Assembly (NCBI GenBank): GCA_922989275.2
Contig: OV277866.1
Coordinates: 34,613,246-34,677,245, forward strand
Direction of reading: 5' to 3'
Length of the DNA stretch: 64,000 bases
Origin: Gari tellinella
Lineage: Eukaryota > Mollusca > Bivalvia > Cardiida > Psammobiidae
Shown here: one piece after another, positions 877 to 47,694 of the stretch
Numbering within the stretch: position 1 is the stretch's first letter
How the letters are laid out: each line of letters opens with the position of its first letter
Position numbers and translations under genes: made by a program
The notes under the pieces: model-generated
Database searches by the model: none
What the model saw: only the letters and a program-made list of their open reading frames with translations
What the model was told of the DNA's origin: nothing

Positions 877-1809
877 CTACATTCTTTGACTGTAAAGTTG
901 ATTTGGAACACCTTCTATTGTCATCTCTACTTTTTCTATATTTGGGTTGAAATATGATTCAGTGCTTGTTCTTTCTGGGTCTTCAAAAAGCATCAATATG
1001 CCTTTCATGCTTCGTGCTGGTACATTCAAGTTAATATTCCATAGTGTATCAGATCTATTCTTTGTTATTTTTCTGTGCCGTAATATGCGATCATATAATA
1101 TAACCATTTTCCCTTCATATTGTAGTCTTATTTGTCTAACAAGTTCTGTATCAGACACCATATCAAATTCCAAACATATATTTTTAATAATGTAAGATGC
1201 CGCTGTGTCGGTTGATTTAATCACTTTATCATAGTTGTTGAATGTAAGTTCATATTCAAGTCTATCACCAAGACCCGCTTGATAAAATGGCATTTGTGTT
1301 TCCAACAGTTCAAAATCAAGAGGGATACAAAATCTTTTTTTGTATGCATTTGCTATAGCTTTGTCTTCTTTGTCTGAGGAAGCATCATCAGCGCCAACTC
1401 GATGTTTTAACATATTGTCTTTACCAATACCTTGATAAGCCATATTGATGCGTTTAGAAGGAGACCTCCATAAATCAATATAACAATGATAAATATCACG
1501 GTCATCAATTGACATCACTTCATTACCGGATATTCTTATTGTCGTTTTTTTTATAAAGGCTCTACCAAGGTTTTGAAACACAGTTGCATTGGCATCTGTG
1601 CTTTTTATTTCAATTTCAAAAGCAAGACGTGCTGTTCTGGGAACAATAACATCATTATTACTGAGATTAGGAAACCTAACCAACAGTTGTAGGTTTTGGT
1701 CAATGGTACTAGGGTTATTAGTTATTACAACACTCTGAGGAATTCCTTTCACACCTTTTGGTTCTCTTATTATTATGTAGGGGTTTAGTTTATCTCCATA
1801 TGCTGACAT
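877..1809 (-). CDS. Candidate capsid-type structural protein of an endogenous virus-like element
   Basis: A single intact 310-residue frame, the only undamaged long frame in the cluster. The sequence looks beta-rich and non-enzymatic. An N-terminal third ends in a GRAFIKKTTIRISGNE-type segment. A middle segment has IPLDFELLETQMPFYQAGLGDRLEYEL near residues 160-190. A second half contains LYDRILRHRKI and LNVPARSMKGILMLFEDP. The order of these blocks recalls the two halves of double-jelly-roll capsid proteins (as in Polinton-like and large DNA viruses), but 310 residues is short for that fold, so a single-domain or C-terminally shortened protein is possible. The start codon lies directly after the motif ATTAATAAAAAC shared with other genes here. 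It is divergent from the gene starting at 1854. I know the family as recurrent in mollusc and cnidarian genomes; the capsid role is inference. Confidence 0.5.
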   Translation of the reverse strand: MSAYGDKLNPYIIIREPKGVKGIPQSVVITNNPSTIDQNLQLLVRFPNLSNNDVIVPRTARLAFEIEIKSTDANATVFQNLGRAFIKKTTIRISGNEVMSIDDRDIYHCYIDLWRSPSKRINMAYQGIGKDNMLKHRVGADDASSDKEDKAIANAYKKRFCIPLDFELLETQMPFYQAGLGDRLEYELTFNNYDKVIKSTDTAASYIIKNICLEFDMVSDTELVRQIRLQYEGKMVILYDRILRHRKITKNRSDTLWNINLNVPARSMKGILMLFEDPERTSTESYFNPNIEKVEMTIEGVPNQLYSQRM

Positions 1810-1853
1810 GTTTTTATTAATGTATTTTTAATTTTTCTTTAATAAATGAACTA
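1810..1853. promoter_or_regulatory. 44-bp divergent gene start region
   Basis: Very AT-rich gap between two head-to-head genes. On the minus strand ATTAATAAAAAC (1810-1821) abuts the ATG of the capsid-like gene. On the plus strand a related TTAATAAA stretch lies about ten bases before the ATG at 1854. The same motif precedes the genes at 11368 and 12695. Confidence 0.5.
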
Positions 1854-3211
1854 ATGGCTAAAGGTGGAATGGAGATTTATAATCCTGAATTTGATAAAGA
1901 TGACTATGATAAAGATGAAGCAGAAACATCTTTTACTGATGAAACACAATTCCAAAGTATGTTGAATACTAAATATAAAGCATTGGATAATCTAACAGGT
2001 TAGGACGAGCAAAGAGAAACAACTTCTTTGATTAAAATATTGGTGAAACGATTTTATGATAGAAATCAAGAACCAATAAGACTTAATAATGATGAGGCCG
2101 AATGGTATATGATACATGATAAATATGGCAGACCTTTGTTTGGTGTGGAGGACACAGATGATAATAATAAAGGATACCTCTTATCATATTACAAGGGTAC
2201 AAAACCTGATGCTATAATGCAGTTTTTTCATTGGACACAATTCAACAGAAATATGGAGTTAGGGTTATTAGGAATATTTTAGGGGTAGATGATTATCAAC
2301 CTCATGTTACTCGAGTTAAGGAGGGTAGACAGGAATTACAACAATTAGTTGAGACAAGAAATAAAATTGAAGCAGAAGAAATTCCAATGCAAGATATATC
2401 TTCTACACAAGAGATACAAGATTTAACCAATACAGTTGATGAAGTTGAAACTGCAGTTAAAACACTTGAAACATCTTTTTGGGATGTAGAAGAACGTGAA
2501 AATGTACAAACACAAACCGATATGACAAAACGAGAAATGGATGGTATTTTGAAAGCAATGACTTCTGTGAAAGAAGAATTTGCTAATGAGTTGGCAAAGC
2601 TTACTGAAACAAACAAGGAAATAGCAGCTGAAAGAGAAAAACTTGCAAACACAAACGATGAGGATGCAAAAAACAATAGAAGGTAGAATAAACGATTTGG
2701 AAGCAGAGAGAAGCGCTAGATTGGAAGTGATAAATGTTAACAAAGAAAAGTTAAGAACTCAAGTGAATAGAATTAAAAATTCTATAAATAAAATATTAAA
2801 CGAAGACACTACCCTTGGTGAAAGGTTGAGAACATTGTTCAGAGAACAAGGTATTACAATTATCAGTATTTTAACTGCTATTGGTATGGTTATTGGTTTC
2901 ATTGTTGAAGCTGTTATTCCATCTGGCAGCGCGGCAACAACATCGCCTCCAAGTAAACCATCTGATGCAAAAGATTGGATAAAAAACAATTGTCAAATCT
3001 TGGAAAATTATTGGCTAATCTTGCAGGGAAAGCAGCAACAGCTTTACCAGGTGTAATTGGTTCTATTGTATCATGGTTGTTATCAACAACTGGTAAAATT
3101 GTTAATTGGTTTAGTGAAAATTTATGGGCGTTAGTTGTTCTTGTTGTTGGTTTGTTGTATGCAGCTGCTAAGGAGTATAGTAATAAATCTCATAAACGAG
3201 TAAAGCTGTAA
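1854..3211 (+). pseudogene. Coiled-coil membrane protein of the virus-like cluster, broken
   Basis: Reading from ATG 1854 gives about 450 codons in pieces that join in order: 1854-2000, in-frame TAG at 2001-2003, continuation to about 2260, frameshift, continuation to a frameshift in an A6 run near 2667, then to a second A6 frameshift near 2984, ending at 3211. The N-terminal part is acidic. The middle (2290-2800) is Glu/Lys/Thr-rich and predicted coiled coil. A hydrophobic segment follows at about 2850-2920 (ISILTAIGMVIGFIVEAVI). A small-residue-rich amphipathic stretch and a second membrane segment (LWALVVLVVGLLYAAA) lie just before a basic tail. This could be a virion membrane or attachment protein; no enzyme motif is present. 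Its 3' end overlaps the convergent minus-strand gene by 44 bp, a compact viral style of packing. Lesions at A-runs could be assembly errors. Confidence 0.5.
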
Positions 3212-4177
3212 GCCCCACTGCTATACTGCCAACAATTAATGCGCTTTTATTATCTTCATGTTGTGTTGCAATTTGTTTTTGTGGTGTTGTTGTTTCTTTT
3301 TTTGGTCCTGAAAGTGTTGCATCTTTTGGTGGAGGAGTTGTTGAAGCATCAATAAGAAAACTATGCTCTTTCACCAATGTGTCACAATAACCGGGTGTAC
3401 ATGTATTTTCTGCCTTTTTAACCCATTCCTTAGGTAAATGGTGTGTTTTTGCATAATCAGTAATCTTTTTATAATCAGCCGCACTTAGTTGTGATGGTTG
3501 TGTTTGTTTTGTCTTAGTTCCTTCAAGCTTTACAGTTGGATTTGGTGGAACTGGTTTTACATTGATACCATTATTCAACCAAAGTGTCTGTTGATCCGTT
3601 GCTATTACAATTTCATTGTTATAATATTGCATTGTTCCTATCCTCAACTCCATATTACTTGGAGACATATACAACCCAATGCCATATACAAAATCAACCT
3701 TAGTTCTTGCATATTTTAGTGTGTGTTGATAGTTTCTAATTTGATTTGGTAAATCAACAGGACCATTTATAGCATCTTCTATACTGGCAAGAAATTGTTT
3801 TTGAGCATCAAAAGCAGTTTCTGTTCCCAGTATATCTGTTCCTGTTTGAGCTTGAGAACATAGGATAGCCCAGCAATAAGTTCGTATTGATTCATTTATA
3901 CGTGGTACACCAGCCTTTGTAAATCCATTTGATGTATCAAGAATAAATGCAGTCCATGCATCTTTTACACCATCGTCTTGTTGAATATAATCAATATGTA
4001 CTTTTTTGGAGGATCATAATTACAGGATGAGATACCGCAGTGTCTATCACCCGGTACTTCAGGACCAAATGTCATTTTGCTTAAATCCAATTCAGCAACT
4101 TTGTTATTAGCAGTATGCTCATCGGATCTATCATGTCTAAAATCTGTTCTGTCCCATGCAACATGACCACTTGTATA
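3168..4177 (-). pseudogene. C-terminal part of a cluster gene split by a DNA transposon
   Basis: This minus-strand frame continues the gene that starts near 11318 and is interrupted by the transposon at 4178-10879. Removing the transposon and one TATA copy keeps the reading frame. One frameshift lies in an A6 run near 4010. The segment has a globular, probably beta-rich part (4170-3580), a Pro/Thr/Lys-rich linker with a Cys pair (about 3440-3290), and a C-terminal membrane anchor (SALIVGSIAVGLTALLVYEIY) ending at 3168. This suggests a surface-exposed, membrane-anchored structural protein; no family is named. It converges on the 1854-3211 gene with overlapping ends. Confidence 0.5.
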
Positions 4178-25424: not shown

Positions 25425-28400
25425 GTAAGACACACATCTTAGCACATCGTGTATTAAACAATAAAAAGCGGATTATAAACTATACTGGATTAAACGAGTA
25501 CCGAGATATTTATGGTACATATTATAACACCATCGTATAAACAGGCATCACTATTTACACCCTAACATAAGCTTAAGCTATGTGGGAATAGCGCATTTGT
25601 CTACTCGTAACACATGTACGTGTTCATTCTGCGTTCGTCCGTTACATATATAAAGATACTTCAGGTAAAACTAATATGGTTTGTAACATTTAAATAGACA
25701 TTTTACTTCCTTGGTAAAAATGTTACCGGTTTAAACATTGCGATATATAGCCATTGCTTTGAATTCAACTAACATTATCAAAATAAAGTATTACTTTATA
25801 TTAAGAATAAAAACAAATTCTTACGTCATTTTTAGCAAAGACCAACAGAATAGGTGCTTGGTTATTTCTTATATTAAGGGTTATTTGTTATTATACTGTG
25901 TCGCTGTCATAATGAAGGCACAAGCCATCTTAAACATTCATAGGTACACTACTGCCTGCTTAAAATATCGTCTGCCCCTTTGTCAATTTTACCATTTTCG
26001 GTATTTAGACATAAGTAACGTCGATATTTAGTATCAAACAGTTTAGATCCTAACAGTCATGCTAAATGAAAGTCCGCCTTAGAATATACATTCAACGAAA
26101 TATTATTTTTGCTCAGATTTCAGAATGATGATAAACGCCGTCTGTATGTCATCGACTTTTTAGTTATGACACAATATCCACTCGACTCGCCTGAAGACAA
26201 GGTTCCGATCCTGCGTCGAGATATTCAAATGGGTAAATCTACAGGACAATTTTCAGAAACAAAGCACTAAATACGTTTTTTCTGTTGTCAGAAAAAGCAA
26301 TATTTTGAAGAAAAAAACGCTGGTGCCTGGTTTCTTGTCCACGAATGCGCTTCTTTAGTCTAGGGTTATTTTCATGCAGCTTGGTAACAAGTGAAGACTG
26401 TACTTTACCTTAATTAGCATTCCGGAAATGGCCCAAATCATTGTGTCGTCAAAACAAGTTGCATTTTTCTTGGTTTAGTATTATCTTCATATAATGTCTT
26501 AAAGAACAAGATATGGCCGACAAAACTCCCTGCATGGAGCACAGTCATTCATATATGTATATAAGTAAACGTTAGTTAGGAAAGCAAGGTACATTAAAAA
26601 GTACATTCAGGGAAAAACAAAAGACTCGAAACACTTGCACAAAAGCAAATTAACAAAATATTGGCCACTTTTTACGCCCAAGAGTTATAAAATGACCGCT
26701 GACATGTCGCTATATATGTTTTGTAAATCTAAATATTTACAATATGCACGATATTTGCTATGACATATAAAATTGCATAGAATCATAGTGTAGTCAAAGC
26801 CAAGCCATAGTCAAGTGTACAATTCAAGGTTTTAATTTAGTCTAGTCTATATTGGATTGTTATTTTCAGTGTAATGTACAAAAACAAACAGTGCAGTGCC
26901 TTATCAGAGGACTCCTGCATCTGATATGGGTATATACACTGTTTGCATAGGATAAATACTGTTCACAGGTACACAAGTGGTTATATTGGCAGACAACAAA
27001 TGGTGTTCTAAAACGATAGATGACGAATTCGTGTTCAAGATTTTAAACCGTAACGTGTTTTTCATTAGTTTTATCTTTGACCTTTGGCTTTCAGTATGCC
27101 ATCATAGACACATTAAAGTACTTATGTATATGATTACGAAAGGCCGTTTAATACATGTTCGAGTTATCTTATGACAATACGTATAGGCTGTTATGTTAAC
27201 TAGTTCTATTTTGTAGCAAGTGATTCAATCATGTCAGACTGGGACTACAATAACCGAACCTCGCATGGGTCAGACGTACTCGGTTTTGGAATTAAATCGC
27301 ATATCAGCTTTCTTTTTAATCTTAAAATACTATTTACATTGCTTTAACTAGCTTTAGAATACGAATTTTGCTGGTAGAAGTGCTTGTTTGTTCAATGCTT
27401 TTGTCTTTGGTAAGATTCAATCTGTCCATTTTAAACGGAATGATACGCAAACACATACCAATAAAATATAGAAACATGACAAGTTCATGGAGTATACATG
27501 TACATTGTATATGATTTTTTTTAAATGAGAGGTACAAACATTGGAACCTGATCAGACATCGTATTTTCTTGCGTTTTATATGGCTCTAAACTGCACATTA
27601 TACTTGTTGTAGAACAAAAACGTTATTTGGGAATGTCTAATGTCTTCTCCATTGAACCTATCTCTTTAGAGATTGGTTACTTAGCCCCGTATCACTGGTC
27701 GCCGATGACAGATTCGTTAATGGTACTCGAGCTTTCCAATACAGACCATGAATTTACCAGAGTTAGCGAAGGATTTATGGAATCGTCCGGTGGAGGTTAC
27801 ATCGTTTCAAAGGTGAGTCAATTTCGGGAGAACTTTGGCAGCCTCGACAATGCACTTAGACCATGTTTACTCATACGATTATACAGTGTAATTACATACT
27901 TTGGTATTCTTTATTCTTTTTTAAATTATTCAATTATTATGACACGATTATGTTAAGTAAGTCATATTCACCGCTGTATTTGATGGTAGAGTATCTACTG
28001 TTTGTTTAAGCACATTTGGAAATAACTTTTCATTTTATAGCTTGAGACACGCAGTTAACAGCGTACTGGTACAATTCCGCTTACCGAAAAATAACCAATA
28101 CTGTTCATCACCCATAATCATTGTCAGTGCGATACAGAACGATATAGTCTGCTGTCGACGTACTTGATGGCTACAACTAGATTGGGTTCCTTTGGGCGCG
28201 AATGTGATTGCCGGATTCCGTCAAAAAAGTCGAGAGTAGTAAACACGGCCCTGTATCACACCGGCATATGGTGATACGATTTTGTGTGCTTTCAATATAC
28301 TCACAAACAATTAAAACCAGTGTATATGCAGAGACATTTGACTTTCATGTAGAGCAAATAACTATTGAATGTCACAGTGTATTACGATGAGCATTTACAT

Positions 28401-32170: not shown

Positions 32171-35100
32171 GTGAGGTAACAAGTAATCACTAATAAAGCT
32201 TTATGTATTTGAAAAGTGTTCTCAAACATTACAACAAATGCTACACCAATGCAAAGGGCACTTACGTAGGAATAAAATGTTAAAGTTTAATATGAATACT
32301 AGTTGTTTTATAAAAGATCTACAGTACCATGGAACACCACTCGTATTTCTAGGTGTTCGATATTTAGCATTAATACTATGCTATTGTTTTAGCGACGTTT
32401 GCTATTGCAGCTCAAGTACATAGACATTGTAGCAAGGCAACATAATGTTGAACTAAATATGATGAAAGACGAAGGTCGGAAAGAAATAAACGGTATCAGA
32501 ACAAACGTCTATGAGGCCCTAGACAAAATATACGAGTAGGTTTATTGATAAAAAACTAAGTGGTCTTCTCACATTGTTAATAACCTTAATTTGGAATGAG
32601 CACGTGAGAGCAGTGTTTGATGATGTTGTTGTTTACAAATAAGTTGTTGTTATTGTTGTTGAAGTGGGTTTTTAAGTTGCTTGAACAGGAGACCAGTCGC
32701 CTGATCAACATCTCATTACATCGTTTTAAAGATATGAGGTATTGATCTAAAAATAATGTGAACCCTGACCAAAGTTACAAACACTCTGGATTTTAACCTT
32801 TTCAGTACTTTGGCCGACATACAAATGCATTTTATTATGGATTTATCCATTAGTTGAATTACTGAAAAGGTATCGCCTGTTAGCAACTTTTTACTGCAGC
32901 ATGCAAAACTATGGCAGTGAGCCTAAATCTTTTCTGCAAGTTGATCAAGCTGGCATGCCCCAGAACAATACAGGGCTAACAAATAAGAGTATTTCAAGTG
33001 TGGAGTTCCATATCAGAGACCGAGTAACACGACCTGTCAAACTGTTAATGTTAAAAACGACAACGTCTAGCAAATATTAACCATAAGTTTAATTTGAAAA
33101 GCAAACGGGTTGACGCCTTATCAGACACCGTATAGCCTGGTTCCTAATTTGATTTGTAGAGGGCATAGGACTTTTACCATTTATTAATAACTTTGTTTGG
33201 GAAATATCAATGTCTTCCCGAATTTACACACACTATCATTTCTTTTCCATAGCAAATTACGAGATGTTGAACGCAATGAACACAGCCAGAGGTTGGCTTC
33301 TTATGCTACAGACATCATACAATGGCACTTCGTCGAACCCGATTCTACTGGATTACAAAGGCTACGCCAATATGAGCCTACTGTCAACAGAGAAATAGAA
33401 GACGCCTACAAAGAAAAAGAGTCTAGGATGGAACTGATGTAAGACACACGTCTTAGCACATCGTGTATTAAACCATAAAACTTAATAAAATATATTGAAT
33501 TAAACGAGTACCGAGATATTTATGGTACATATTATAACACCATCAAATAAACAGGCATCACTATTTACACCCTAACATAAGCTTAAGCTATTTGGGAATA
33601 GTGCATTTGTCTACTCGTAACACATGTAAGTGAAAACTATGCGTTCGTCCGTTACATAAATAAAATTACTTCAGGTCAAAACTAACATGGTTTGTAACAT
33701 TTAAATAGACATTTTATTTATTTAGTAAAACTGTTACCTGTTTAAACATTGCGATATATAGCCTTTGCATTTAATTCAACTAACGTTATCAAAATAACGT
33801 ATTACTTTATAATACGAATTAAAACAAATTCTTACGTCATTTTTAGCAAAGACCAACACAATAGGTGCTTGGATATTTCTTACGTTAAGGCTATTTGTTA
33901 TTATACTGTGTCGCTGTCATAATGAAGGCACAAGCCGTCTTAAACATTCAAAGGCACACTACAGCCTGCTTAAAATATCGTCTGCCTCTTTGTCAATTTT
34001 ACCATTTTAGGGATTTAGACATAAGTAACATCGATATTTAGTATCAAACAGTTTAGATCCTAACAGTCATGCTAAATGAAAGTCCGCCTTAGAATATACA
34101 TTCAACGAACTATTATTTTTGCTCAGATTTCAGAATGATGATAACCCCCGTCTGTACGTCATCGACTTTTTAGTTATGACACAATACCCACACGACTCGC
34201 CTAAAGACAAGGTTCCGATCCTGCGTCGAGATAATCAACTGGGTAAATCTACAAGACAATTTTCAGAAACAAAGTGCTAAATACGTTTTTCTGTTGTCAA
34301 AAAAAGCAATATTTTGAAGAAAAAAAGCGCTGGTGCCTGGATTCTTGTCCACGAATGCGCTTCTTTAGTTTAGGGTTATTTTGATCCAGCTTTGTAACAA
34401 GTGCAGACTGTACTTAACCCTAATTAGCATTTCGGAAATGGCCCGAATCATTGTGCCGTCAAAACCAGTTACATTTTTCTTGGTTTAGTCTTATCTTCAT
34501 ATACTGTCTAAAAGAACAATATATGGCCGACAAAACTCCCTGCATGGAGCACAGTCATTCATATATGTATATATGTAAACGTTAGTTAGGAACGCAAGGT
34601 ACATTAAAAGTACATTCAGTGAAAACCAAAAGACTCGAAACACTTGCGCAAAAGCAAATTAACAAAATATTTGCCACTTTTTACGCCCAAGAGTTATAAA
34701 ATGACCTCTGACATGTCGCTATATATGATTTTGTAAATCTAAATATTTACAATATGTACGATCTTTGACATGACAAATACACTTGCGTGGAATCATAGTG
34801 TAGTCAAAGCCAAGCCATAGTCAAGTGTACAAATCAAGATTTTAATTTATCTAGTCTATATTGGATTGTTATTTTCAGTGTAATGTGAAATAACAAACAG
34901 TGCAGTGCCTTATCAGAGGGCTCCTACATCTGATATGGGTATATACACTGTTTGCATAGGATAAATACTGTTCACAGGTACACAAATGGTTATATTTGCA
35001 GACAACAAATGGTGTTCTAAAACGATAGGTGACGAATTCGTGTTCAAGATTTTAAACCGTAACGTGTTTTTCATTAGCTTTATCTTTGACCTGTGGCTTT

Positions 35101-38100
35101 CAGTATGCCATCATAGACACATTAAAGTACTTATGTATATGTTTGCGAAAGGCTGTTTAACACATGTTAGAGTTATCTTATTACAATAGGAATAGGCTTT
35201 TATGTTAACTTGTTCTATTTTGTAGCAAGTGATTCAATCATGTCAGACTGGGACTACAATAACCGAATCTGGCATGGGTCAAACATACCCGGTTTTGAAA
35301 TTAAATCGCAGTTGAGCTTCTTTTTAATCTTAAAATGCTATTTACATGGATTTAACTAGCTTTGGTTTTCAAATTTTGCTGGTAGAAGTACTTGTATGTT
35401 TAATGCTTTTGTCTTTGGGAAGATTCACTCTGTTCATTTTAAACGGAATGATACGCAAACACATGCCAATAAAATATAGAAAATGACAGGTTCAGGGCGT
35501 ATACATGTACATTATATATGATTTTTTTGAATCTGAGAGGTACATACGTTTGGACCTGATCAGACATCGTATTTTCTGGCGTTGTATATGGCTCTAAACT
35601 GCAAAATATACTTGTTGTAGCACGAACACGTTAATTGGGAATGTCTAATGTCTTCTCCATTGAACCTATCTCTTTAGATATTGGTTACTTAGCCCCGTAT
35701 CACTGGTCGCCGATGGCAGATTCGTTACTGGTGCTAGAGCTTTCCAATACAGACCATGAATTTACCAGGGTTAGCGAAGGATTTATGGAATCGTCCGGTG
35801 GAGGTTACATCGTTTCAAAGGTGAGTTAAATTCTGGAGGACTTTGGCAGCCTCGACAATGCACTTAGACCATAATAAATACGAAAGACTCAAGCAGGAAA
35901 CGCAACACATAAAATATAAACCCTGTTCCAAAACCTTACAATCAAAAAGACCGCCAGCACAGTAAGTAAATACATGTAAAACATCTATCAAACTATCTAT
36001 GACAAGATTATTAGTAACACGGGAAAAAATTTAACATTCAAGCCCGTGCTAACAATAACCCACTGTGGCAACGGTCAAATTGTACTCAAGCGACTAGTCT
36101 GTAGTAACGAGTAACTGTAAGACATGGATGGGTTCAGGGTACGACAGAGAGGGAGAGAAAAAACAAACAAAGCACGAAAATCAGACATCACTCTCCCGGT
36201 TAAGGACGGTTTTTTTAGATACATCATCATGTAGTGCTAAGCCCTGTCTGTCGTCGCACAACCAAGGAAGAAAGCATGGTTATCAATTGTAGATGGATCG
36301 ATAACCAAACGTGAAGTGCGCAGCAATATAGTTGGATCATAATCTTTTTGGAGGAAAAATCTAATGCGTTTCACAAACAAGTTTTGAAAATGAATATGTC
36401 CAAGAATCTTACAAAGTTTGTAAATAACATCACCGTAGAACTCCGGATGTGAAATACCTTGCCGCAGAAAAGACAGTAAGTTACATTTATACTTGTTAAT
36501 GAGAGGACGATTTCTATAAAATAATTTAGAAAAGAAGCTTTTCAGTTATAGTTTTATTACGAATGTGGAAGTCCTCAACAGAGGTACAGGCTCTAGCAAC
36601 ACGAATAAGTTACTAGATATCAACCCCGTAAGATGTAGAACGGGGAACATCGCCATCTAGATGAGGATAATTTACAATACTAAAATCAAAATCATCTCGT
36701 TTATCGTAAATCGTAGAAGAAACAATTCCGTTATTTATTAAAAGATCTAAATCTAAAAATGGTGCCGACAAATATGACTCATTTGTTTTATTAAGGCGTA
36801 GTTCTTTTGGGTAAATAAAAGGAAACAACGTATCAAAAAATGAGTTGTCTATATTAAAAATATCATCTAGATAGCGCGATGTATTGTTAAAGGCTTCGAT
36901 CATATCTGCCTGTGTATCAGGTTTTAGACTTAGCATGAAGTCCCTCTCATAACAGTACAAAAATAGGTCTGCGACAAGAGGCGCACAGTTTGTACCCATA
37001 GGGATACCAATCACTTGGCGGTATATGGTACTCCCAAAACGTACATAAATATTATCCAGAAGAAATGATAGTGATTTACAAACATCGGTGCAAGTCCGAA
37101 TAGTGTAATGCTTAACCGTGTCATTTGTAAAAAATGCACGATCAGTATTACACGCCAGAAATAGTTTCCTTTCTCGGGCAAAAGTCTTTTCAATAAGTTG
37201 TATAAGTTTGGCTTTTATTAAACTATGAGGTAAGGTAGTATATAGTGTTGAAAGGTCATAAGTACTTATATTGCAAGCTTGGTATTTTCTATTTTTAAGC
37301 TTCGTCAAAACTTCATTCGAGTTTTTGATAGACCAAAATAGATTAAGTCCAGAATTTTCGTAAGTCTTTGCACAATACCTTTGAACATGTTCTTTGATTT
37401 TAATTAAAGACGATGTCAAAAGTTTGGAAAGCTTAGTAGTAGTACATGCACTTGAATTAGCAATGAAACGGGACTTATATGGAGTTTTGTGGAGTTTTTG
37501 TATCCAGTACATTGTAGGAAGTTTGTTACATGTAATGTTGACTTCAGCTTTTAATTGTACACATGTATCAAGATGATCAGATACTACATTACGTTCCGTT
37601 AAATGGGTTGATGTGTAGGAATTGGTATTTACAAGTATCAACATAATGTAATCGTCATACAATTATCACATTATTGGATGCTTTGTCTGCAGGAACGAGT
37701 ACATATTTGGAATGAAAGTCTTGTATGCCCTTCTTTAAGTGACGAATGCTAAATTTAGGTTTAGGTGGTAAAAGATGGTTATTGGATAATTAGAGCGAAA
37801 TCCGGGTATCGATAATATCAAAAATTAATTATTTCCATTTTGAAAGAGCGTCATTTTCAACATGGTATCTTCGGCACCAGTTGGTACTATAATTATTCAA
37901 AGCTTCCGAAATATGATTGCGGCAAGTATCGAAATCAATTAAGGCAGGTAATCTAAATTTAGGTCCCTTACTCAAAAGCGCTCTGATACGTTAATCTTAA
38001 ATGATATCAAAATTGCCTGTTATTATATGACCCACTGGAGCGTAACAAAATTTAGAAGAGGTACAGTCACATCTATCTGGTGTGTTTTCGAGAATTTTAA

Positions 38101-41100
38101 GATCAGAAACAATTTTATTGTAGTTAAAAATTAACCCTCTTACAGATTTATTATACTTATAGCAAATAATAGGTGGTTCAAGATTTTTGAAATAATTTGG
38201 AATAGCATTCATCACATTTTTGTTTCGGGGAATATTTTGTAAATGTATGAAATCAATACCTTTATTTATAAAAGGGACCTTAATGAAATATCTTTTGTGA
38301 TCGTTTAAAGACTCAATATGAGGTCTGAGAACATGCTGAGTATAACTTTGTATTAAACCCGCAGTAAAATACAGAGGATCTGTGCGTAAAATTATTCCAT
38401 CAGCCGTGTCGTCAATATCTCTTAAAGACGACAATGACAACGAAGAAATCCGAGAAAGCATTTTATGTTTACCAGAAAGTAACAGCAGATTTTGCAAATC
38501 TGTTTTAGAAACCGACTTACGCGATTTACGTTCAATATTTCCAATTATACGAATACCATGCCATCTAGATTTACGGTTGCGTGTAGAATAAATCGAAAAA
38601 ATATCAATAGAAGGTTCTTTTGAAATATTGCCAGATTGGTATATATTATCATTCAAGCCTAAAGGAAAGGGTGTCTGTAAAGCGTTAATCCATTTTAATT
38701 CCGTTATAAATCTAGCCTTACATTTGAAACTATTAGTAGCATTTTTATCATACGTAATAATTATGTTCGACAGGTTGAATTGAAATAAAATCTAATCCAT
38801 GTCCAGATTTTCTAAAATGTTGATAAAAAAAGATCCTCAGTTTTTTGTTTCTACAAGTACGAAGATGTTCATTAAACCTAGTTTTGAGGGGACGACCGGT
38901 TTGCCCAACATACTGGACACCACAACCTGGTGCTTTTCAAGTTAACACGTATATAATATGATTAGTTCGTCAGTTGATGTCTGAATCTATGACAACACTA
39001 AATAATCTACCGTTTACTGATGATTTTATAGTAGACTTGCAAGATAAATAATTGCAACACGCTCACCTCTTAGCATTGCACTTTTCAATAATAGGATGCA
39101 CTGTACGTTTTTTGTTCAGTGGTCGTAATAAAACTGAATTATTGCGCTGAATATAATATTTTAGAGGTGAAAGCATCACTTTTGGACCATTATGAAAACA
39201 ATTATTAATAGAAAGAGATGGAATGTGAAAAGAAGATGCCGAATAGAGCTTAAGTGGTGTTAACTGTACGCACGGCTGTAGTGATACAAAATAAGTATTA
39301 TTTCTAGGGATATGAACAGAACACACAGAGTGCATTCTAAGTGGTGTAAGTGGTATTATTAGTTTTTTGTTAGTTTGTAGTACCATGTTTAAGAGAAGTA
39401 AGTGAGCACCTGCCACTCTGTATCGACTATAACTCTACAGAAAGTAAGTTCGAAATTTATTATAAAGTAATTCCAATTTGAAAAATGTAAAGATTGAAAA
39501 TGGTTAATGTAATTATAACTCTACAGAAAGAAAGTTCGAAATTTATTATAAAGTAATTCCAATTGGAAAGTGTAAAGACTGAAAATGGTTAATTTTAGTA
39601 GTGAAAAAAGTAACTGGTGCGACGTGAGTAACTCATCGCAATACCTTATATGTAAAGAGATAATGAAGAACCGGTACAATACCGAAGCTCATCTGACCAT
39701 CGGTACATAGAGACCTACCATACGGTGCAAGAAAGAAAGACAAAGAGACGAGTTGTACAACAAGTGCACGCTCCTGCAGGAGGAATGATAACACTATTGA
39801 TTAAATATACGGGGCGACGTTTTAAAACCTTCACACGGTACAAGTAACACTATTGTGGCAACAAATAAATACGAAAGACTCAAGCAGGAAACACAACACA
39901 AACAATACACCCACCTCTCAAGCAGAACACACACACAGTCACACACACAGTCATACCACAACAAACACACACACACACACACGCAATACCATTCCTTCAT
40001 CTACACACTAAATAGAAAACAACACGCAAGACAAACATAAAGTAAAGTGAATATAGGAGCCCGCCTTGGTACGGTCAGTAGCAAGCAATATTTAATTATA
40101 AATTAATTAATTATTAACAACCACTGGGTTTAGGGGCGCCCAACCTCAGATTATACAATGTAATTACATACTTTGGTATTCTTTATTCAATACCGTTATA
40201 ACAACCTGTGGACAAAACGCTGTTGAACTGTGTAAGCTATTGTTGCACTGCTATTGTCACACGGTATTAGCATAGCAATTAAGTTACCACAAGTTAACAA
40301 TGGGTGTTGATATCTCAACATATAGGGTTCGTATTGGTCTTCACTATGGCAGGTTTGGAAATCGGCGTCTGTGCAAACCGATGAAGCATGGTATATACAC
40401 ACCGTATACTCGCTCTACTGATGTACACTACCGAACGGTGGTGATGTTTATGGTACTTATCCCTCTGACTATAATATGTAAATATACTGTATTAGTGAAT
40501 ACGTTGTACACCCAAACAAACTGTTCAATTGGACCAAATGTCATCAATGGATCTGACTCGGCATGTGCTTTCAATGTTCAGCGACTTAAGATGCTACTTG
40601 CAAATGACATAGAGTCAAACCCTGGTCCAGCCGATTTTGATACTTTGCCCCGAGCAATTAAGGAATCTGACACAAATCTCTCAGCCCAGATGAAATTGGT
40701 GCAATCTGACATTCACGAGATAAAAACTGAGATGCTGACAATTAAGAATGAACAAGATTCTCTAAAATCGCAATTAAGTGATGTTCAAGGCAAACAAGAT
40801 GATATTGAAAGCAGTTTGAAAGCCACAGATAATACTGTTAATTACCTAGATGAGATTATGGAGACGATGCAACTAGATGTAGACCACATAATAAAGGCCA
40901 CATAATCACATGACGATTCGCTAAGTGAAATCAAGACAGAAATTGAAAACTTAAACAAAAAGTCAATTGCCAATAACATGAGAATATTTGGTTTAAATAT
41001 TGATGCTAAAGCTAGCGAAAACGACCGAAAAGTCCATATCATGAAGAATGTTCTAAATGTAGCGCGTCCAGATATACATTGGGTTGTCGACGATATAAAA

Positions 41101-44100
41101 TACGTGCGTATATATGAAAATGGCGATAACACCTCTCCTCTAGTGATTGTTTCCTTCCGTTTTGATGATGATAAATTCCGAGTTTACGCGGGGAGAGACG
41201 AACTGCGTAAATCATTTATACGAGTTGGAGATGTCATGACTTATGAGCAAAGAAAAGCGTTGAAAAGACTGAAAGCTGAAGGTAAAGCAGGCTATTATCA
41301 TAAAGGAGCATTACATATTAAACCTGACAGTGAAACAACCCCCAGTACTGATAAACGTGAATTTCGTACGGCAGTCCGTAAACTTAATGCTAACCCAAAT
41401 CAAACGGTAAATAATGATCATGTTGAGTCAATAGAAGTAGACTGATAGGAGAAGAACCTAATAAGCAATTGCTTTCGTTCTAATCCTAATGATCTATGTA
41501 TGACTTAAACATGTGTTTGTATTACGAAATAAAATATGTTTAAACTAATAGAAGTAGACTAGGGATCAGGCCGAGGCCCACACAGACTGAACTTAATGTG
41601 CTGGAATATTGAAGGTGTGACAAATAAGTTAGAATTTGAAGAAGTTGTCACCTATTTAAAGTCATTTGAAATATTTGGGTTAATTGAAACCTGGCAAGCT
41701 GATCATGATAAGATTACCATGTTATTTCCTGAGTTTAATTGTTTCTACAAGAATGCTTTTAAATATGGATCTAGAGGAAGAGCAGTGGCCGGAATCTGTG
41801 TTTTTGTCCACAAAACCTTACATACGTTTTGTGAACAATTAAACACAGATTCCAAGTTCATGCTATTCCTGAAACTTAATAAAGATTTAATTGATGATGT
41901 AAAAGATACTGTTCTGTGTTTCACATATTTACCACCGGAAAACTCTCCGGCATATAATAATGACCAGTTGAAAGGGATTGATCTTCTAGAATACGAATTA
42001 AGTATGTTAGATCTTAACCTGTCTAACACACACCTAATAGTAATTGGTGATCTAAATGCCAGAACTGGAACTGAGTCAGACTGTATTGAGGTAGGCCATA
42101 ATATTCCAGAATTTATTGAATATGAAGACTTATGGTTGTCAAACGTTTCAGCTAGATCATCCTGTGACACTAATATAAACAGTGCAGGTAGAAAACTTCT
42201 AGACTTTTGTAAAGTGTATGGAATGTTAATTGTTAATGGAAGATGCGGGAACGATAAAGGTGTTGGTAATTTTACATTTGCAAATGCAAATGGTAGCAGT
42301 GTGATAGACTATATACTTGCGACTGGGGGTGTTATGGATAGCCTAAGCAAATTTAGTGTTGGTGAAAGGACAGAATCGTGCCATTTTACTTTGCAGGTAT
42401 CCATAGAGTCTAAACACCTCCCAGTGAATCAACTAGTAACTGATCAGGACAAATGTGTTAATAAGCCAGTTTATACATTTACTGATACAAACATTGCAAA
42501 GCTTAGAGACAATCTTATGATATTTTCAAAAGACAATTTAGTACATATCACAAACTGTTTAAACAATATGGGTGAGCAAATCGACGATATACTAGATATA
42601 ATGAAGGTTGTCGATAATGCACTATCAGTTTGTAAAAAAACCAGTTAGGTCTAATAAGAGAAGGCCGCAGCCGCCATGGTTTGATAAGGAGTGTTCGAGC
42701 AGGAAAAGAGATAAAACTAAAGCCCTGCGAAAATACAGGCAAAACCGAACCGCAACAAACTTAGAGTTTTACATGAGTTGTAAACAAAGATTTAAGGTAC
42801 ATTGTCAATCTAAAAAGACTAGTATGTATGCCAAACAGTTAGATGACTTGTGTAACTGCTCAAATAGCCCCAGATCCTTTTGGAAAGTTCTTAAACGCAT
42901 TACAAATTCTAATACATGGCAGGCAAATATTAATATAGATGAATGGAAAGAACATTTTGAAACATTATTCCAGTGTGATGACATTGCCAACAAAAACAAT
43001 TTTGATGTTTTAGATGAAGATGAAGATTTGGATGAGATCAGAAATGCAATTTTTTATTTAGATATAAAAGATGAAGAGGTTGCAATGAGTATTAAGTCAT
43101 TAAATAGCTCAAAGGCACCAGGTTAGGATGGTATCCCTCCTGGTTTCTTTAAGCATTCCATGGATATTTTAATGCCTATTATGGTAAGGTTATTTAATAG
43201 ATTGTTTTTAAATGGTGAATTTCCAACGGCATGGGGTAGTGCAGTTTAAGTGCCAATATTTAAGAAAGGCGACCGAGAAAATCCTGAAAATTACCGTGGT
43301 ATATCTCATTTAGATATATTTGGTAAAATTTATACCAGTGTAATTAACAGACGACTCTCTTTTTTTGCCAATGTTTTTAATAAGATTGACGAGTCACAGT
43401 CAGGTTTCAGAGAAGGTTATTCAACAATAGACAACGCATTTGTTTTGCAATCGATAATATCCAAGCAGCTGACTAAAAAAAGGGTAAATTATATGTTGCA
43501 TTCGTAGATTTCAAAACGGCCTTTGATTCAGTGCAAAGGAGTAAACTATGGGAAGTTCTTCAAAGTGCTGATATAAAAGGTAATCTTTTGCGGGCTTTAA
43601 CTGCTATGTACCAGAACGTGAAATCATGTGTTAAATACAATGGTAAGACATCTGAGTATTTTGACTGTCCAGTTGAACTCAAACAAGGCTGTTTAGCATC
43701 TCCGAAACTATTTCTATTTTTTATTAATGAGCTATCCTTAACAATGAAACAAAATAAAGACTTAAAAGGAATTCAGCTCCAGCCAAATGATATTGAAATT
43801 CTGCTTCTAATGTTTGCAGATGATGTGGCTCTTATGGCAGACACGGTTAGAGAACTCCAAAAGCAGTTAAATGTTTTGAATGAGTTTTGCCAAACAAGCT
43901 GTATTAATGTTAATACACAGAAAACGAAAGTAATGGTGTTTAAAAAGGGGGTATGCTATCTAGACACGAAAAAAAGACATACAGAGGGGAAGTCTTACAA
44001 ATAGTAAATACATTTACATACGTCGGTGTTACATTTACTTCTCGTCTTTCTCTCAATGAAATGGCTACAGACTTGGCCACAAAAGCAAAGAGGGCATTAA

Positions 44101-47100
44101 TTTCAATATTAACCTCCCTTTACCAACATGGTCAACTACCGTATAGTATCTTTTTCAAGTTGTTTGATTCTAAAAGCTTACCAGTTGTTTTATATGGTGC
44201 TGAGATTTGGGGATACAGTTCCAGAACTAGTTCAGAAACAGTTTTACATTATGCATGTAAGAGATATTTGTGTACGAGTAAACACTCAACAAATGCTGCT
44301 GTCCTAGGAGATTGTGAGCGTTTTCCGATAGCAATATAAAGTGCTAGGAGGTACATAAAATACTGGTTTAAAATCACAAAAATGTCTGATACGAGGTATG
44401 TCAAAAAATATTACAATATGCTTTTGAAAATGCCGAATGATGGTTATTTTAACTGGTCATCGGAAGTGAAAAACCTTCTATGTGAATATGGTTTTGCATA
44501 TATTTGGTATAACCAAGGTACTGATAACGAAAAATTGTTTTTAATACTGTTTGTACAGAGGATGAAAGATACACATTTACGAAACTGGTACAGTTATGTT
44601 GAGACCTGTTCTAAATGTTCATACGAACGTGAGATTTTCCTGGATGTTTTAACAGTAAGAAATTCAGACACTGTTACGCTCAGTTCAGAACAGGTATACA
44701 TGAACTGGAAATAGAAAGGGGGCGGTATAGGAACATACCAAGAGAAGAACGCTTGTGTAGGGTTTGTTCAAATGGTGATGTTGAAGATGAGTTTCACTTT
44801 CTGTTTATTTGTAGTGTTTATGCAGATTTAAGAGATAGTTTTATACCTAGAAACGTATATAATAACCCATCCTTACAGAAAATGTACAATATGCTAGCAA
44901 CAACAAAAGAAGCAAAACTTAGAAATTCTGCTCAATATATATATTATGCTCTTGCTTTGAAACGACAGATATTAAATACTTAAGCATTTATATAGTACAC
45001 CCAAACTATGATTTAGTATACTACCGGTATACATGTATGTGTTGATATATAAATCTGAATAAGGGGAGATCCTTTGAAAGCACAGAAAACAAAGCAAATA
45101 CTGAAAATTGCAGACTCGGTTTAATTGAGTCTGTTCATGAGCAATACTGAAATGTGCAACAGTGCTCACGCCCCCTAAAATCTATATCTCACGTATCTAT
45201 ATATAAAACAATCCAATACTACTCTACTACATTGATTGTATATTATGCTTTGTCTGTATTTCTTGTACTATGGGCTGGAGGCATGATTGTATAAATAAAC
45301 AATTTGATTTATTCTTTTTAAATTATTCAATTATTATGACAAAATTATGTTTTGTAATTCATAGTCACCGCTGTATTTGATGGTAGAGTATCTACTGTTT
45401 GTTTCAGCACATTTGGAAATAACTTTTCAATTTATAGTTTGAGACACGCAGTTAACAGCGTACTGGTAAAATTCCGCTTACCGAAAAATAACCAATACTG
45501 TTCATCACCCATAATTATTGTCAGTGCGATACAGAACGATATAGTTTGCTGTCGACGTACTTGATGGCTACAACTAGATTGGGTTCCTTTGTGCGCAAAT
45601 GTGATTGCCGGATTCCGTCAAAAAAGTCGAGAGTAGTAAACACGGCCCTGTATCACACCGGCATATGGTGATACGATTTTGTGTGCTTTCAATATACTCA
45701 CAAACAATTAAAACGAGTGTATATGCAGAGACATTTGACTTTCATGTAGAGCAAATAACTATTTAACGTCACAGCTTAATACGATAACGGTTAACATGCG
45801 TATTAATATATACCATCAATTCCGTTGGGCTTATCGGAAACAATGTTGGCTGAAGTACAAACAGTTGAAAACAGTTATTTCGATACAAAATATTGTATTC
45901 CAACTTACAAATACACACCCAGTGAAGAGGAAAGACCCGGTATCACGGGAAGGCATATAATAAAACTTTGTAAATGTATTCGAATATTTGAAACGTTAAA
46001 TGCTACTATTAGTCATGGAGCTTCTTATATTGTTTGTGATGTAAAAAAAAAGGGATATAATGTCCGTTTTCCGTAAACTTTAATTTACATACATGTAGCA
46101 CCAACACACTGATTATAGTGCTCCCTCTCTACTATAACACCCAATGGAAGACAAACATGTTGTTCGATGTTCAGTGTGTGTTGTTATAGGGAGGGAAAAT
46201 TAAGACTTCGCTTACATTTGCAAACAGCTTGAATTAAAACTAGACGCCTGATCTGGATTCAATCTGTCACTTGTCCTTATATCTCCTTTTCAAATGTCCT
46301 CTATTAATTATATAACTTTTTAGGCAAAAGAGCAGACGAGAAATTTAAGCACATGATATTGCTACAGTTAAAGTACCTTGTTTGGGGAACAGCGAAAATT
46401 ATTGTTGTAAGGAGGGAATCGTTGTTCGGAGGACCGTTGTAATATAGGAGCACTGTAGGACTTTTTATTTTAGTGGATTTACGAATTCAAAATGATAATG
46501 AATCAAACGCTGTTTTTTTCATGTTTCATCAACAACAGATACAGAGGATACAAAACTTTCCATTGTGGCAACAGTATCAAGCCAAGAAAACGCAACTGGC
46601 CTCCCAGAATCCCCCAGGAACAAGGAATGAACGTATGTTGTGGCATGGTACTAAAGTAGGTGCAATTGACAGAATCAACCAACACGGATACAACAGAAGC
46701 TATTGTGGTGCCAACGGCAAGTGTCCCAGGAGCATTTGTTTTTATTACCTGAAATGATGTTTGTTACTCCTTATGTACCAGGTCCAGCACGTGCAATCAG
46801 TCTGGATTAAGATCAGCCGTCACATAACGGGGTGCGGTGAAAATCCAAATTATTTGACAATCATATAAAAATCTGAATAAGAGGAGATCCTTTGAAAGCA
46901 CAGAAAACAAAGCAAATACTGAAAATTGCAGACTACATTTCTGAGTCAAACTGCAAACTATTCTGAATTTTAGAAACAAAACAAGACGATGTATTAACGA
47001 TGCTAGTGAAATTTTTAGACGGGTTACGGCGTCATAATAGCAGTGAAGGAGTTAAACTGTTTGAATATTACTTTGTTGATAAATGTACATGTATATGGTT

Positions 47101-47694
47101 TTCTTTCTTCGATAGAGACACAATTGCTAATCAATAAATAAATAATATTTAAATAAGTTATCCTTCACTTGAACCAATGGTTTAGGAAATACTTGAGCAA
47201 CTGGCAAGCTAATACTCTTTACAATTGCTATCAATAGCATTCGTCATAATCTGGATTACAATTGCCAACTGTCATTTTACCAACCGTCTTTGATTCGGAT
47301 GTTTTCATTTCACATATTTGCGTTATTAACTTATTGTCTGGTGTGTCTATACATCATATATTATGGTTTAACCACCCGTTTTCCTTTTTTAGGGACTAAC
47401 TTTGGTCATGGGGTTTACTTTGCCGAGAAGGCCGTTTCAGCTTGTTACAGCACCTTTGCTGCTCCGGACCGTAATGGCATCAAACATATATACCAGTGTA
47501 GAGTGCTGACTGGTGAATATACACACGGACGGACAGACATTAGAGCGCCTCCAGCAAAACCAAGCGGTGGACCACAGGCCATGTACGATTCTCTTGTGGA
47601 CGACACCAACGCTCCATCCCTATATGTTATTTTAAACGATACTCAGGCGTACCCAGAATATCTGATTTCGTTCAAGTCCAAACATGCAGTGTAG
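31971..47694 (+). CDS. PARP14-like mono-ADP-ribosyltransferase, copy B (seven exons seen)
   Basis: Exons are 31971-32170, 32411-32535, 33253-33438, 34127-34242, 35678-35820, 46539-46716 and 47393-47694. Every junction keeps phase and no stop or frameshift is present. The order is a helical/KH-like region in exons 1-2 (MSDRDLDEISNQL; YIDIVARQHNVELNMM; INGIRTNVYEALDKIY), then WWE in exons 3-4, then the PARP catalytic domain in exons 5-7. The catalytic residues are His in LWHGT, Tyr in GHGVYFAEKA and Leu in AYPEYLISF, so mono-ADP-ribosylation is expected. Upstream macro domains usual for PARP14 are not in the window. The exon 5-6 intron is 10.7 kb because of a Penelope-like element and a LINE. 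Expression across that intron is uncertain, but the exons look functional. Confidence 0.8.
32411..32535 (+). CDS. Copy B exon 2: KH-like segment
   Basis: Acceptor TTGCTATTGCAG, donor GTAGGT. Contains YIDIVARQHNVELNMM and GIRTNVYEALDKIY, the alpha-beta pattern of KH-like domains before the WWE of PARP14-type proteins. Confidence 0.6.
32536..33252 (+). other. Intron, copy B
   Basis: No gene or element is recognised in its first part; from 33121 it is collinear with copy A upstream of its first exon. Confidence 0.5.
33253..33438 (+). CDS. Copy B exon 3: first half of WWE
   Basis: Acceptor TTTTCCATAG, donor GTAAGA. KLRDVERNEH...IIQWHFVE; intact and closely similar to copy A. Confidence 0.75.
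34127..34242 (+). CDS. Copy B exon 4: second half of WWE
   Basis: Acceptor TTTTTGCTCAG, donor GTAAAT. RLYVIDFLVMTQYPHDSP, intact. Same length as copy A. Flanking introns 33439-34126 and 34243-35677 are collinear with copy A and hold nothing else recognised. Confidence 0.75.
35678..35820 (+). CDS. Copy B exon 5: start of PARP catalytic domain
   Basis: Acceptor TATCTCTTTAG, donor GTGAGT; intact. Followed after 52 bases by the Penelope-like insertion. Confidence 0.75.
36180..36230 (-). promoter_or_regulatory. SECIS-like hairpin, retroelement copy 2
   Basis: Minus strand: ATGA (36230-36227), a helix arm, an A-rich apical start, the CCG/CGG inner helix, a return arm, and canonical TGAT (36183-36180). 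Same architecture as the copies at 16568 and 63807, with an expanded A-run. Confidence 0.65.
36239..37662 (-). pseudogene. Penelope-like reverse transcriptase
   Basis: The 349-codon open part (37662-36613) contains YWIQKLHKTPYKSRFIANSS, the TYDLSTLYTTLPH motif, GIPMGTNCAPLVADLF and the catalytic YLDD (residues 264-267). It then continues after a stop into the C-terminal extension matching 16205-16561. The RT would copy element RNA at a nicked target. An in-frame UGA at 37655-37657 precedes RLHY, where Cys is expected. A frameshift lies just after it. Confidence 0.8.
37997..38763 (-). pseudogene. Linker and CxC region of the Penelope-like protein
   Basis: Open frame of at least 219 codons, extended upstream in the same frame to the frameshift near 38765. 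It contains basic helical sequence and, near its end, RCDC followed by SSKFCYAPVGHIITGNF (CDC at 38071-38063). The CxC motif between endonuclease and RT is described for N-terminal-endonuclease Penelope-like elements. The frame ends in TAA, with three more in-frame TAA codons before the RT part. Confidence 0.7.
38764..39416 (-). pseudogene. GIY-YIG endonuclease part of the Penelope-like protein, with three UGA codons
   Basis: The frame from 39416 runs through to about 38764 with no TAA or TAG, only three UGA codons: 39063-39065, 38970-38972 and 38937-38939. Their surroundings are KCNAKR-U-ACCNYLSC, IDSDIN-U-RTNHIIYVLT and VLT-U-KAPGCGVQYVG. In related elements Cys is expected at all three places. 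The nuclease motif is GVQYVGQTGRPLKTRFNEH, giving the GIY-YIG pair with the following Arg and His. The domain would cut target DNA for integration. A frameshift near 38765 separates it from the next part. Confidence 0.75.
40300..41445 (+). pseudogene. LINE ORF1 with 2A peptide, coiled coil and RNA-binding domain
   Basis: ATG 40300. Residues 46-70 are hydrophobic (signal-anchor-like), and residues 103-110 read DIESNPGP, a complete 2A motif. After it come about 80 residues of coiled coil, an in-frame TAA at 40903-40905, then in the same frame more coiled coil and a domain starting NNMRIFGLN and ending near KRLKAEGKAGYY, like the RNA-binding domain of LINE ORF1 proteins. The stop is TGA 41443-41445. 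The 2A site would split the N-terminal membrane-targeted leader from the nucleic-acid-binding part during translation. Only the TAA damages the frame. Confidence 0.75.
40606..40629 (+). other. 2A 'StopGo' ribosome-skipping motif
   Basis: Codes for DIESNPGP, fitting D-x-E-x-N-P-G-P. The preceding residues RLKMLLAN also fit the usual helical, Leu-rich context. Skipping occurs between the last Gly and Pro in known 2A peptides. Confidence 0.8.
41596..44983 (+). pseudogene. LINE ORF2: APE endonuclease and reverse transcriptase, broken
   Basis: Endonuclease 41596-42648: MCWNIEG, GLIETW, VIGDLNARTG, SSVIDYIL, ESCHF. A frameshift in an A7 run near 42636 leads to the pre-RT region and the RT: KAPG followed by TAG 43124-43126 then DGIPPGFF; TAA near 43247 before VPIFKKGD; a frameshift near 43490 before VDFKTAFDSV; QGCLASPKLF; catalytic FADD at 43813-43824; a further frameshift near 43960 and a TAA at 44337-44339. 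The C-terminal end carries a zinc-knuckle-like CRVCSNGDVEDEFHFLFIC near 44754. It would perform target-primed reverse transcription if intact. Confidence 0.8.
45810..46076 (+). other. Open frame in the PARP intron, unknown
   Basis: A frame of about 88 codons ending TAA, containing TKYCIPTYKYTPSEEERPGITGR and SHGASYIVCDVKKKGYNVRFP, which looks like real coding sequence. The copy A equivalent (28430-28690) is broken by several indels and a stop. It sits between catalytic exons on the same strand but fits no PARP part. It may be an exonised or transposed fragment of another gene. Confidence 0.3.
46116..46457. mobile_element. MITE with AGTGCTCCCTCTCTAC ends, shared with copy A
   Basis: Related to 23984-24343 and orthologous to about 28709-29050, so it predates the A/B duplication. 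A hairpin-family half copy lies at 46217-46270. Confidence 0.6.
46539..46716 (+). CDS. Copy B exon 6: PARP NAD-binding part with LWHGT
   Basis: Acceptor CAACAACAG, GC donor (GCAAGT, 46717-46722). Intact, 178 nt; His of the triad in MLWHGT. Confidence 0.8.
46871..46935 (+). repeat. 65-bp insertion copied from the LINE 3' UTR
   Basis: Matches 45053-45116 of the LINE with one or two differences and is absent at the orthologous place in copy A (near 29473). It includes neither LINE end. The rest of this intron (46717-47392) matches copy A and holds nothing else. Confidence 0.75.
47393..47694 (+). CDS. Copy B last exon: PARP C-terminal part
   Basis: Acceptor TTCCTTTTTTAG. GHGVYFAEKA, CRVLTGEYTHG, YDSLVDDTNAPSLYVI, AYPEYLISF, then a short tail and TAG. 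Intact. Confidence 0.8.

Follow-up and report, generated by a model that had tools for sequence, protein, structure and literature searches.

A Naiad-type Penelope-like retroelement from the bivalve Gari tellinella with conserved in-frame UGA codons, probably encoding a selenoprotein

Main finding

The 64 000-nucleotide stretch of Gari tellinella DNA analyzed here (contig OV277866.1, positions 34,613,246–34,677,245; referred to below as the window) contains a decayed Penelope-like retroelement (PLE) of the Naiad type at window positions 35873–39907 on the minus strand. We assign a probability of roughly 0.92 to the reading that the single protein of this retroelement is a selenoprotein, with its in-frame UGA codons decoded as selenocysteine (Sec). 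Sec decoding was already proposed in an earlier note on this DNA and is supported by our analysis. It is favored because the UGAs are conserved among copies, their positions are occupied by Cys in homologs, TGA exchanges only with TGT, selection acts downstream of the UGAs, a sub-threshold match to a Sec insertion sequence (SECIS) lies at the right place, at the stop codon, and tRNA-Sec genes are present. The four UGAs listed in the earlier note were all found on the minus strand. A fifth site, at the first Cys of a CxC motif, is TGA in other copies; the subfamily to which the window copy belongs uses four UGAs and retains a Cys codon at this site. The sites and the SECIS-like element in the window copy are as follows.

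39063–39065, minus strand: UGA site 1 (U1); occupied by Cys in relatives; all 43 readable copies (43 of 43) have TGA
38970–38972, minus strand: UGA site 2 (U2); again occupied by Cys in relatives, and TGA in every one of the 43 readable copies
38937–38939, minus strand: UGA site 3 (U3), at the Cys preceding GIY-YIG; all 43 readable copies have TGA, and two more are doubtful
38069–38071, minus strand: fifth site, first Cys of CxC; TGT in the window; of the 64 copies examined, 62 can be read here, 52 as TGA and 10, the window copy among them, as TGT
37655–37657, minus strand: UGA site before the reverse transcriptase (U4); TGA in 64 of 64 copies
36171–36238, minus strand: SECIS-like element (SECIS_1, RF00031), beginning inside the stop codon; 18.5 bits in the window copy

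Conservation of the UGA codons among genomic copies

The assembly has 80 contigs that total 1.6 Gb. Searched with a 301-base endonuclease probe, it returned 374 candidates, of which 40 were scored, including the window copy and one near-identical to it. The set of 64 copies consists of the window copy, the 39 others found with the probe, four more copies and 20 half-kilobase pieces spanning the CxC site and U4, and all three groups (40, 4 and 20 copies) contribute to the U4 count. The counts at U1–U3 comprise the 40 copies plus L058, L059 and L061; the 20 short pieces do not reach these sites, and L060, which reads TGC at U3 but is 5′-truncated there, was dropped. Five copies (L017, L024, L042, L047 and L061) retain a frame of 1081 codons in which neither TAA nor TAG occurs. 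The first four have TGA at all five sites, with one extra TGA, at a Trp codon, in L024, while L061 has four TGAs and TGT at the CxC site, the same set as the window copy.

The earlier note had proposed aligning the copies and scoring the codons in each UGA column. Scored in this way, the UGAs are kept, also in the five unbroken frames, and the only exchange in the DNA is to TGT, at one of the five sites; no codon besides TGA and TGT was read at the five sites in the counted copies. The 40943 codon cells outside these columns include 34 TAA, 12 TAG and 5 TGA, and the share of TGA stays below 10% in each of the other columns. A second genome search, with the database relative P0129, gave 98 scored matches from 1502 candidates, some of them copies already in the 64-copy set; together they contain 188 TGA, 18 TAA and 2 TAG, with exactly two TGAs in 83 of the 98. 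Among the matches listed in the endonuclease-probe and P0129 searches, all Naiad loci are on contigs 1–19; a chromosome number of n = 19 is frequent among clams. The near-identical copy, L011 (G000:C11:34840899-34845499), lies ∼192 kb from the window copy and shares 99.85% identity with it across 4 kb, owing either to a recent segmental duplication or to an assembly effect.

Cysteine at the UGA positions in distant relatives

All four UGAs had been said to fall where related proteins have Cys, and this was borne out: the five columns, that of the CxC site included, are 97–100% Cys in 30–36 distant relatives. Counting the proteins that cover each column, out of 193 database relatives, Cys is found in 31/32 at U1, 36/37 at U2, 38/39 (plus one gap) at U3, 63/69 at the CxC site and 58/65 at U4. 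The relatives share 27–44% identity with the element where they cover U1 and U2, and up to 53% at U3, 74% at the CxC site and 65% at U4. A strict set was formed from 36 of the 46 relatives in the alignment by omitting ten close or partial sequences (P0001, P0028, P0072, P0097, P0121, P0126, P0129, P0135, P0137 and P0138). In this set, Cys is conserved (≥80%) in only 9 of 930 usable columns, which include all five UGA columns (probability 2.2e-11 for random columns); the remaining four are Cys codons in this element. The UGA sites correspond to invariant or near-invariant Cys residues located in a Cys-rich cluster before GIY-YIG, in a pair at the start of GIY-YIG, in the CxC motif and at the start of the reverse transcriptase (RT). 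Both columns of CxC are 97% Cys in the 36 distant relatives. Counting its Cys columns, the CCHH endonuclease motif has both conserved, the first of which is U3. A metal-binding role may be proposed for these residues.

No relatives were found in the viral contig set. The genome contig set gave two loci, a distant Cys-type PLE (L001, 28–36% identity) and a 31-residue fragment (L002), and neither provides a second Sec family. One relative, at 65%, was found in a metagenome-assembled genome labelled Candidatus Thiodiazotropha endolucinida, by name a symbiont of lucinid clams.

SECIS-like element and host machinery

The SECIS-like hairpin invoked in the earlier note could be located, although with only 18.5 bits in the window copy; this score was obtained in a scan of 301 bases, and an Rfam scan of the 6.3-kb window stretch gave no SECIS match. 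Of 18 other loci scanned, 13 have a SECIS_1 match immediately at the stop codon (23.3–31.3 bits), and the five unbroken copies are among these. By batch, these are four of four intact copies (30.1–30.2 bits), five of ten loci (23.3–30.6 bits) and four of four loci (24.3–31.3 bits, with L061 at 26.7). The AUGA motif is present in 33 of 34 aligned copies, and the minimum-energy fold of the L017 hairpin has the SECIS shape. The UGAs are located 1.5 to 2.9 kb upstream of the SECIS-like element. The genome contains two clear tRNA-Sec genes (80.7 and 78.1 bits; cut-off of the tRNA-Sec model 47) and a third, borderline match (47.2 bits); the same model also passes the cut-off in 5 of 14 control genomes.

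TGA/TGT exchange at the CxC site and selection

In a FastTree tree of the longer copies, from which L011 was omitted as a near-duplicate, the window clade and L061 have TGT, and L059 (TGT) is placed among TGA copies, and therefore at least two changes at the CxC site are likely on the basis of this tree. Selection was assessed by comparing fixed differences between the window's subfamily (five copies) and the rest (35 copies) with singletons, which were taken as decay, using Fisher's test. The fixed differences comprise 32 synonymous and 25 nonsynonymous codons, compared with 178 and 465 for the singletons (p = 2.9e-5). Downstream of U1, the corresponding ratios are 25:17 and 158:412 (p = 3.8e-5). 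The signal is strongest after U4 (p = 1e-4), and the same trend is seen, without significance, before U1 (p = 0.22) and in the U3–U4 interval (p = 0.11). These subfamily differences indicate that purifying selection acts downstream of the UGAs.

Element architecture

The approximate bounds of the element are set by a 44-nt direct repeat at both ends, which is accompanied by a tandem 86-nt unit. The parts of the window copy are as follows.

35873–39907, minus strand: Naiad-type element, approximate extent; bounded by the 44-nt direct repeat (35873–35916 and 39864–39907, 93% alike)
39428–39600, minus strand: tandem repeat, two copies of a ∼86-nt unit, upstream of the reading frame
38752–39434, minus strand: N-terminal region and GIY-YIG endonuclease frame; 227 codons with three TGA and no TAA or TAG
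37997–38791, minus strand: continuation of the protein in a different frame, including the CxC linker (decayed copy)
36613–37662, minus strand: RT frame; 349 codons in the window copy
36237–36239, minus strand: TAG closing the frame of intact copies

The endonuclease frame runs from 39434 to 38752, with TGA at 39063, 38970 and 38937, and is, as had been noted, free of TAA and TAG over more than 200 codons. In the intact copies a single 1081-codon frame encodes the GIY-YIG endonuclease at the N-terminus and the RT after it, and U4 is in frame, as the earlier note had it. That description does not apply to the window copy itself: frameshifts near 38750–38790 and near 37636 have separated endonuclease, U4 and RT into three different frames. 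Aligned to an intact copy, the window copy has five TAA and one TAG in addition to the UGAs (at least six decay stops); the statement that its decay stops are TAA holds for the five, the TAG being the exception.

The GIY-YIG domain (PF01541) is matched with 23.8 bits in the window copy and 23.2 bits in L017 (cut-off 22.6), and the CxC linker motif reads CDC in the window. A structure model of the intact L017 frame has a mean predicted local distance difference test score of 82.3. In a fold search of the Protein Data Bank (PDB) with this model, ranks 1–14 are all telomerases (best E 1.7e-10), with modest template-modeling scores (TMt 0.28–0.44); a sequence search found no PDB relative. The Naiad type is marked by an N-terminal endonuclease, a CxC motif and a telomerase-like RT, and the element, which has all three, is assigned to it. 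Other Naiad traits are a CCHH endonuclease motif, pseudo-LTRs or terminal repeats, an insertion in the fingers domain (IFD) and the lack of a hammerhead ribozyme. No hammerhead ribozyme match was found, up to E 5, in window 34000–40300 or in the 18 loci.

Weighing of the evidence and alternative explanations

Several observations weigh against Sec decoding. Two of the 98 loci matched by P0129, C10:27415783 (L062) and C1:102710598 (L078), were counted with one TGA although their CxC site is TGA; either U3 is not TGA in these loci, or the alignment or the surviving sequence does not extend to it, as happens in L060. The copies stem from few source elements, and 64 of 64 does not amount to 64 independent events; moreover, the 39 copies were selected by likeness to a segment that itself contains U1–U3. 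The database proteins have Trp in 14 cells, spread over four of the five columns (1/37 at U2, 1/39 at U3, 5/69 at the CxC site and 7/65 at U4), and Leu in two, one each at U1 and the CxC site. In no copy does the SECIS_1 match reach the Rfam gathering score of 35, and no match was returned for five of the 18 loci (L011, L013, L019, L012 and L027), the first three of which belong to the window's subfamily. The L017 hairpin is only moderately more stable than shuffled sequences (z score −1.46), 16 of 200 of which fold as well, and the stretches taken from the window and L061, with the boundaries used here, fold differently from the SECIS shape. Finally, Sec insertion itself is a prediction from sequence.

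The UGAs could be read through by another route, with a near-cognate or suppressor tRNA inserting Trp, Arg or Cys. This explanation, which we regard as very unlikely, draws on the Trp cells and on the SECIS score being under the curated cut-off. The Trp cells may, however, be gene calls made with TGA as Trp, and against this route stand the restriction of exchange in the DNA to TGA and TGT, the position of the SECIS match exactly at the end of the frame and the presence of tRNA-Sec genes. Trp occupies four of the five UGA columns in P0134 and both of the two covered in P0136, P0137 and P0146; judged from the proteins, it seems that the genes were predicted under a genetic code in which TGA means Trp.

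Slightly less probable still is that the UGAs are true stops separating short proteins (pieces of an endonuclease and an RT). Gene callers have in fact annotated such products: of the 193 database relatives, 14, middle pieces, stop exactly before U4 and 24, RT proteins, begin two residues after it, counts that lean towards pieces since the first protein search returned only proteins of 192–611 residues. Separate short frames are nevertheless rejected: stops at U1–U3 would split the endonuclease into pieces of 30 and 10 residues, distant relatives are one continuous protein with Cys, and it is specifically UGA, not TAA or TAG, that is kept at the sites. The weakest explanation, that decay of a dead copy produced the UGAs as stops like any others, suits the plainly decayed window copy with its frameshifts, five TAA and one TAG, but has next to no probability and is rejected, as the same UGAs occur in the other copies read, intact copies with five otherwise unbroken frames refute it, and decay stops elsewhere are scattered and mostly TAA.

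Proposed mechanism

With Sec decoding as the preferred reading, the host factors SBP2, EFSec and tRNA-Sec would be recruited by the one SECIS, which begins in the stop codon, and ribosomes would then insert Sec at as many as five UGAs. Three of these belong to the endonuclease portion (Cys-rich region and GIY-YIG), the CxC linker contributes a fourth, and the last stands where the RT begins. The single SECIS would serve all of these UGAs. In other multi-Sec messages, one SECIS serves several UGAs. A more specific and, in our judgment, doubtful proposal is that Sec is placed specifically at five of the nine near-invariant, probably metal-binding Cys positions, where its role would be that of a zinc ligand or redox switch, not that of a classic catalytic residue. 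The full-length endonuclease–RT protein would then be made only where the host Sec machinery and selenium suffice, and UGA decoding would gate transposition.

Other features of the window

A (TG)n microsatellite at 39927–39982 adjoins the 5′ end of the element, and Naiads are biased toward microsatellites. On the opposite strand, a non-long-terminal-repeat retrotransposon with endonuclease/exonuclease and RVT_1 domains (40276–44339, plus strand), broken into several frames, adjoins the Naiad. Similar short frames at 27552–27956 and 35635–35829 (plus strand; LGMSNVFSIEPISL...), the second beside the 3′ end of the Naiad, point to a further repeat family with two copies in the window. Further away, a frame at 877–1827 (minus strand) has a weak match, below the cut-off, to the major capsid protein N-terminal domain PF16903 (E 0.005); we would guess that the region in which it lies, 877–4013, is possibly a Polinton-like element. 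A frame at 47197–47694 (plus strand) matches the PARP catalytic domain PF00644 with 31.4 bits.

Comparison with known systems

Selenoproteins are few and are mostly redox enzymes. The present case would be a high-copy retroelement with four or five UGA-coded Sec residues per chain, at near-invariant Cys positions resembling metal ligands. Subfamilies that are one Sec/Cys swap apart within one genome offer a natural experiment on why Sec replaces Cys and on whether a transposon is held back by the supply of selenium. Because gene callers end such proteins at UGA, the databases contain truncated pieces. Selenoprotein P is a host secretory protein. It is described in PMC8230778 as containing several Sec residues in one chain, and the retroelement protein would resemble it in that respect.

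Canonical Penelope/Poseidon elements have a PLE-type RT and a GIY-YIG endonuclease, as does the present element, but their endonuclease is C-terminal according to PMC11167929, whereas it is N-terminal here. The Cys-type Naiad-like database proteins P0139, P0140 and P0142 share the domain order and the conserved Cys columns; they differ in having Cys at all five columns and are 37–39% identical over the aligned parts.

Craig, Yushenova, Rodriguez and Arkhipova (2021, Mol Biol Evol 38:5005) reportedly found that the Naiads of spiders and of clams independently came to encode multi-Sec selenoproteins. The Gari element resembles these reported Naiads in having a GIY-YIG endonuclease at the N-terminus, a CxC linker, an RT of the telomerase-like kind, several UGAs in frame and an animal host. 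The present family has five sites, one of which is polymorphic for Sec and Cys, and a SECIS-like element that starts in the stop codon. The element is a clear further case of multi-Sec Naiads, a kind already known from clams and spiders.

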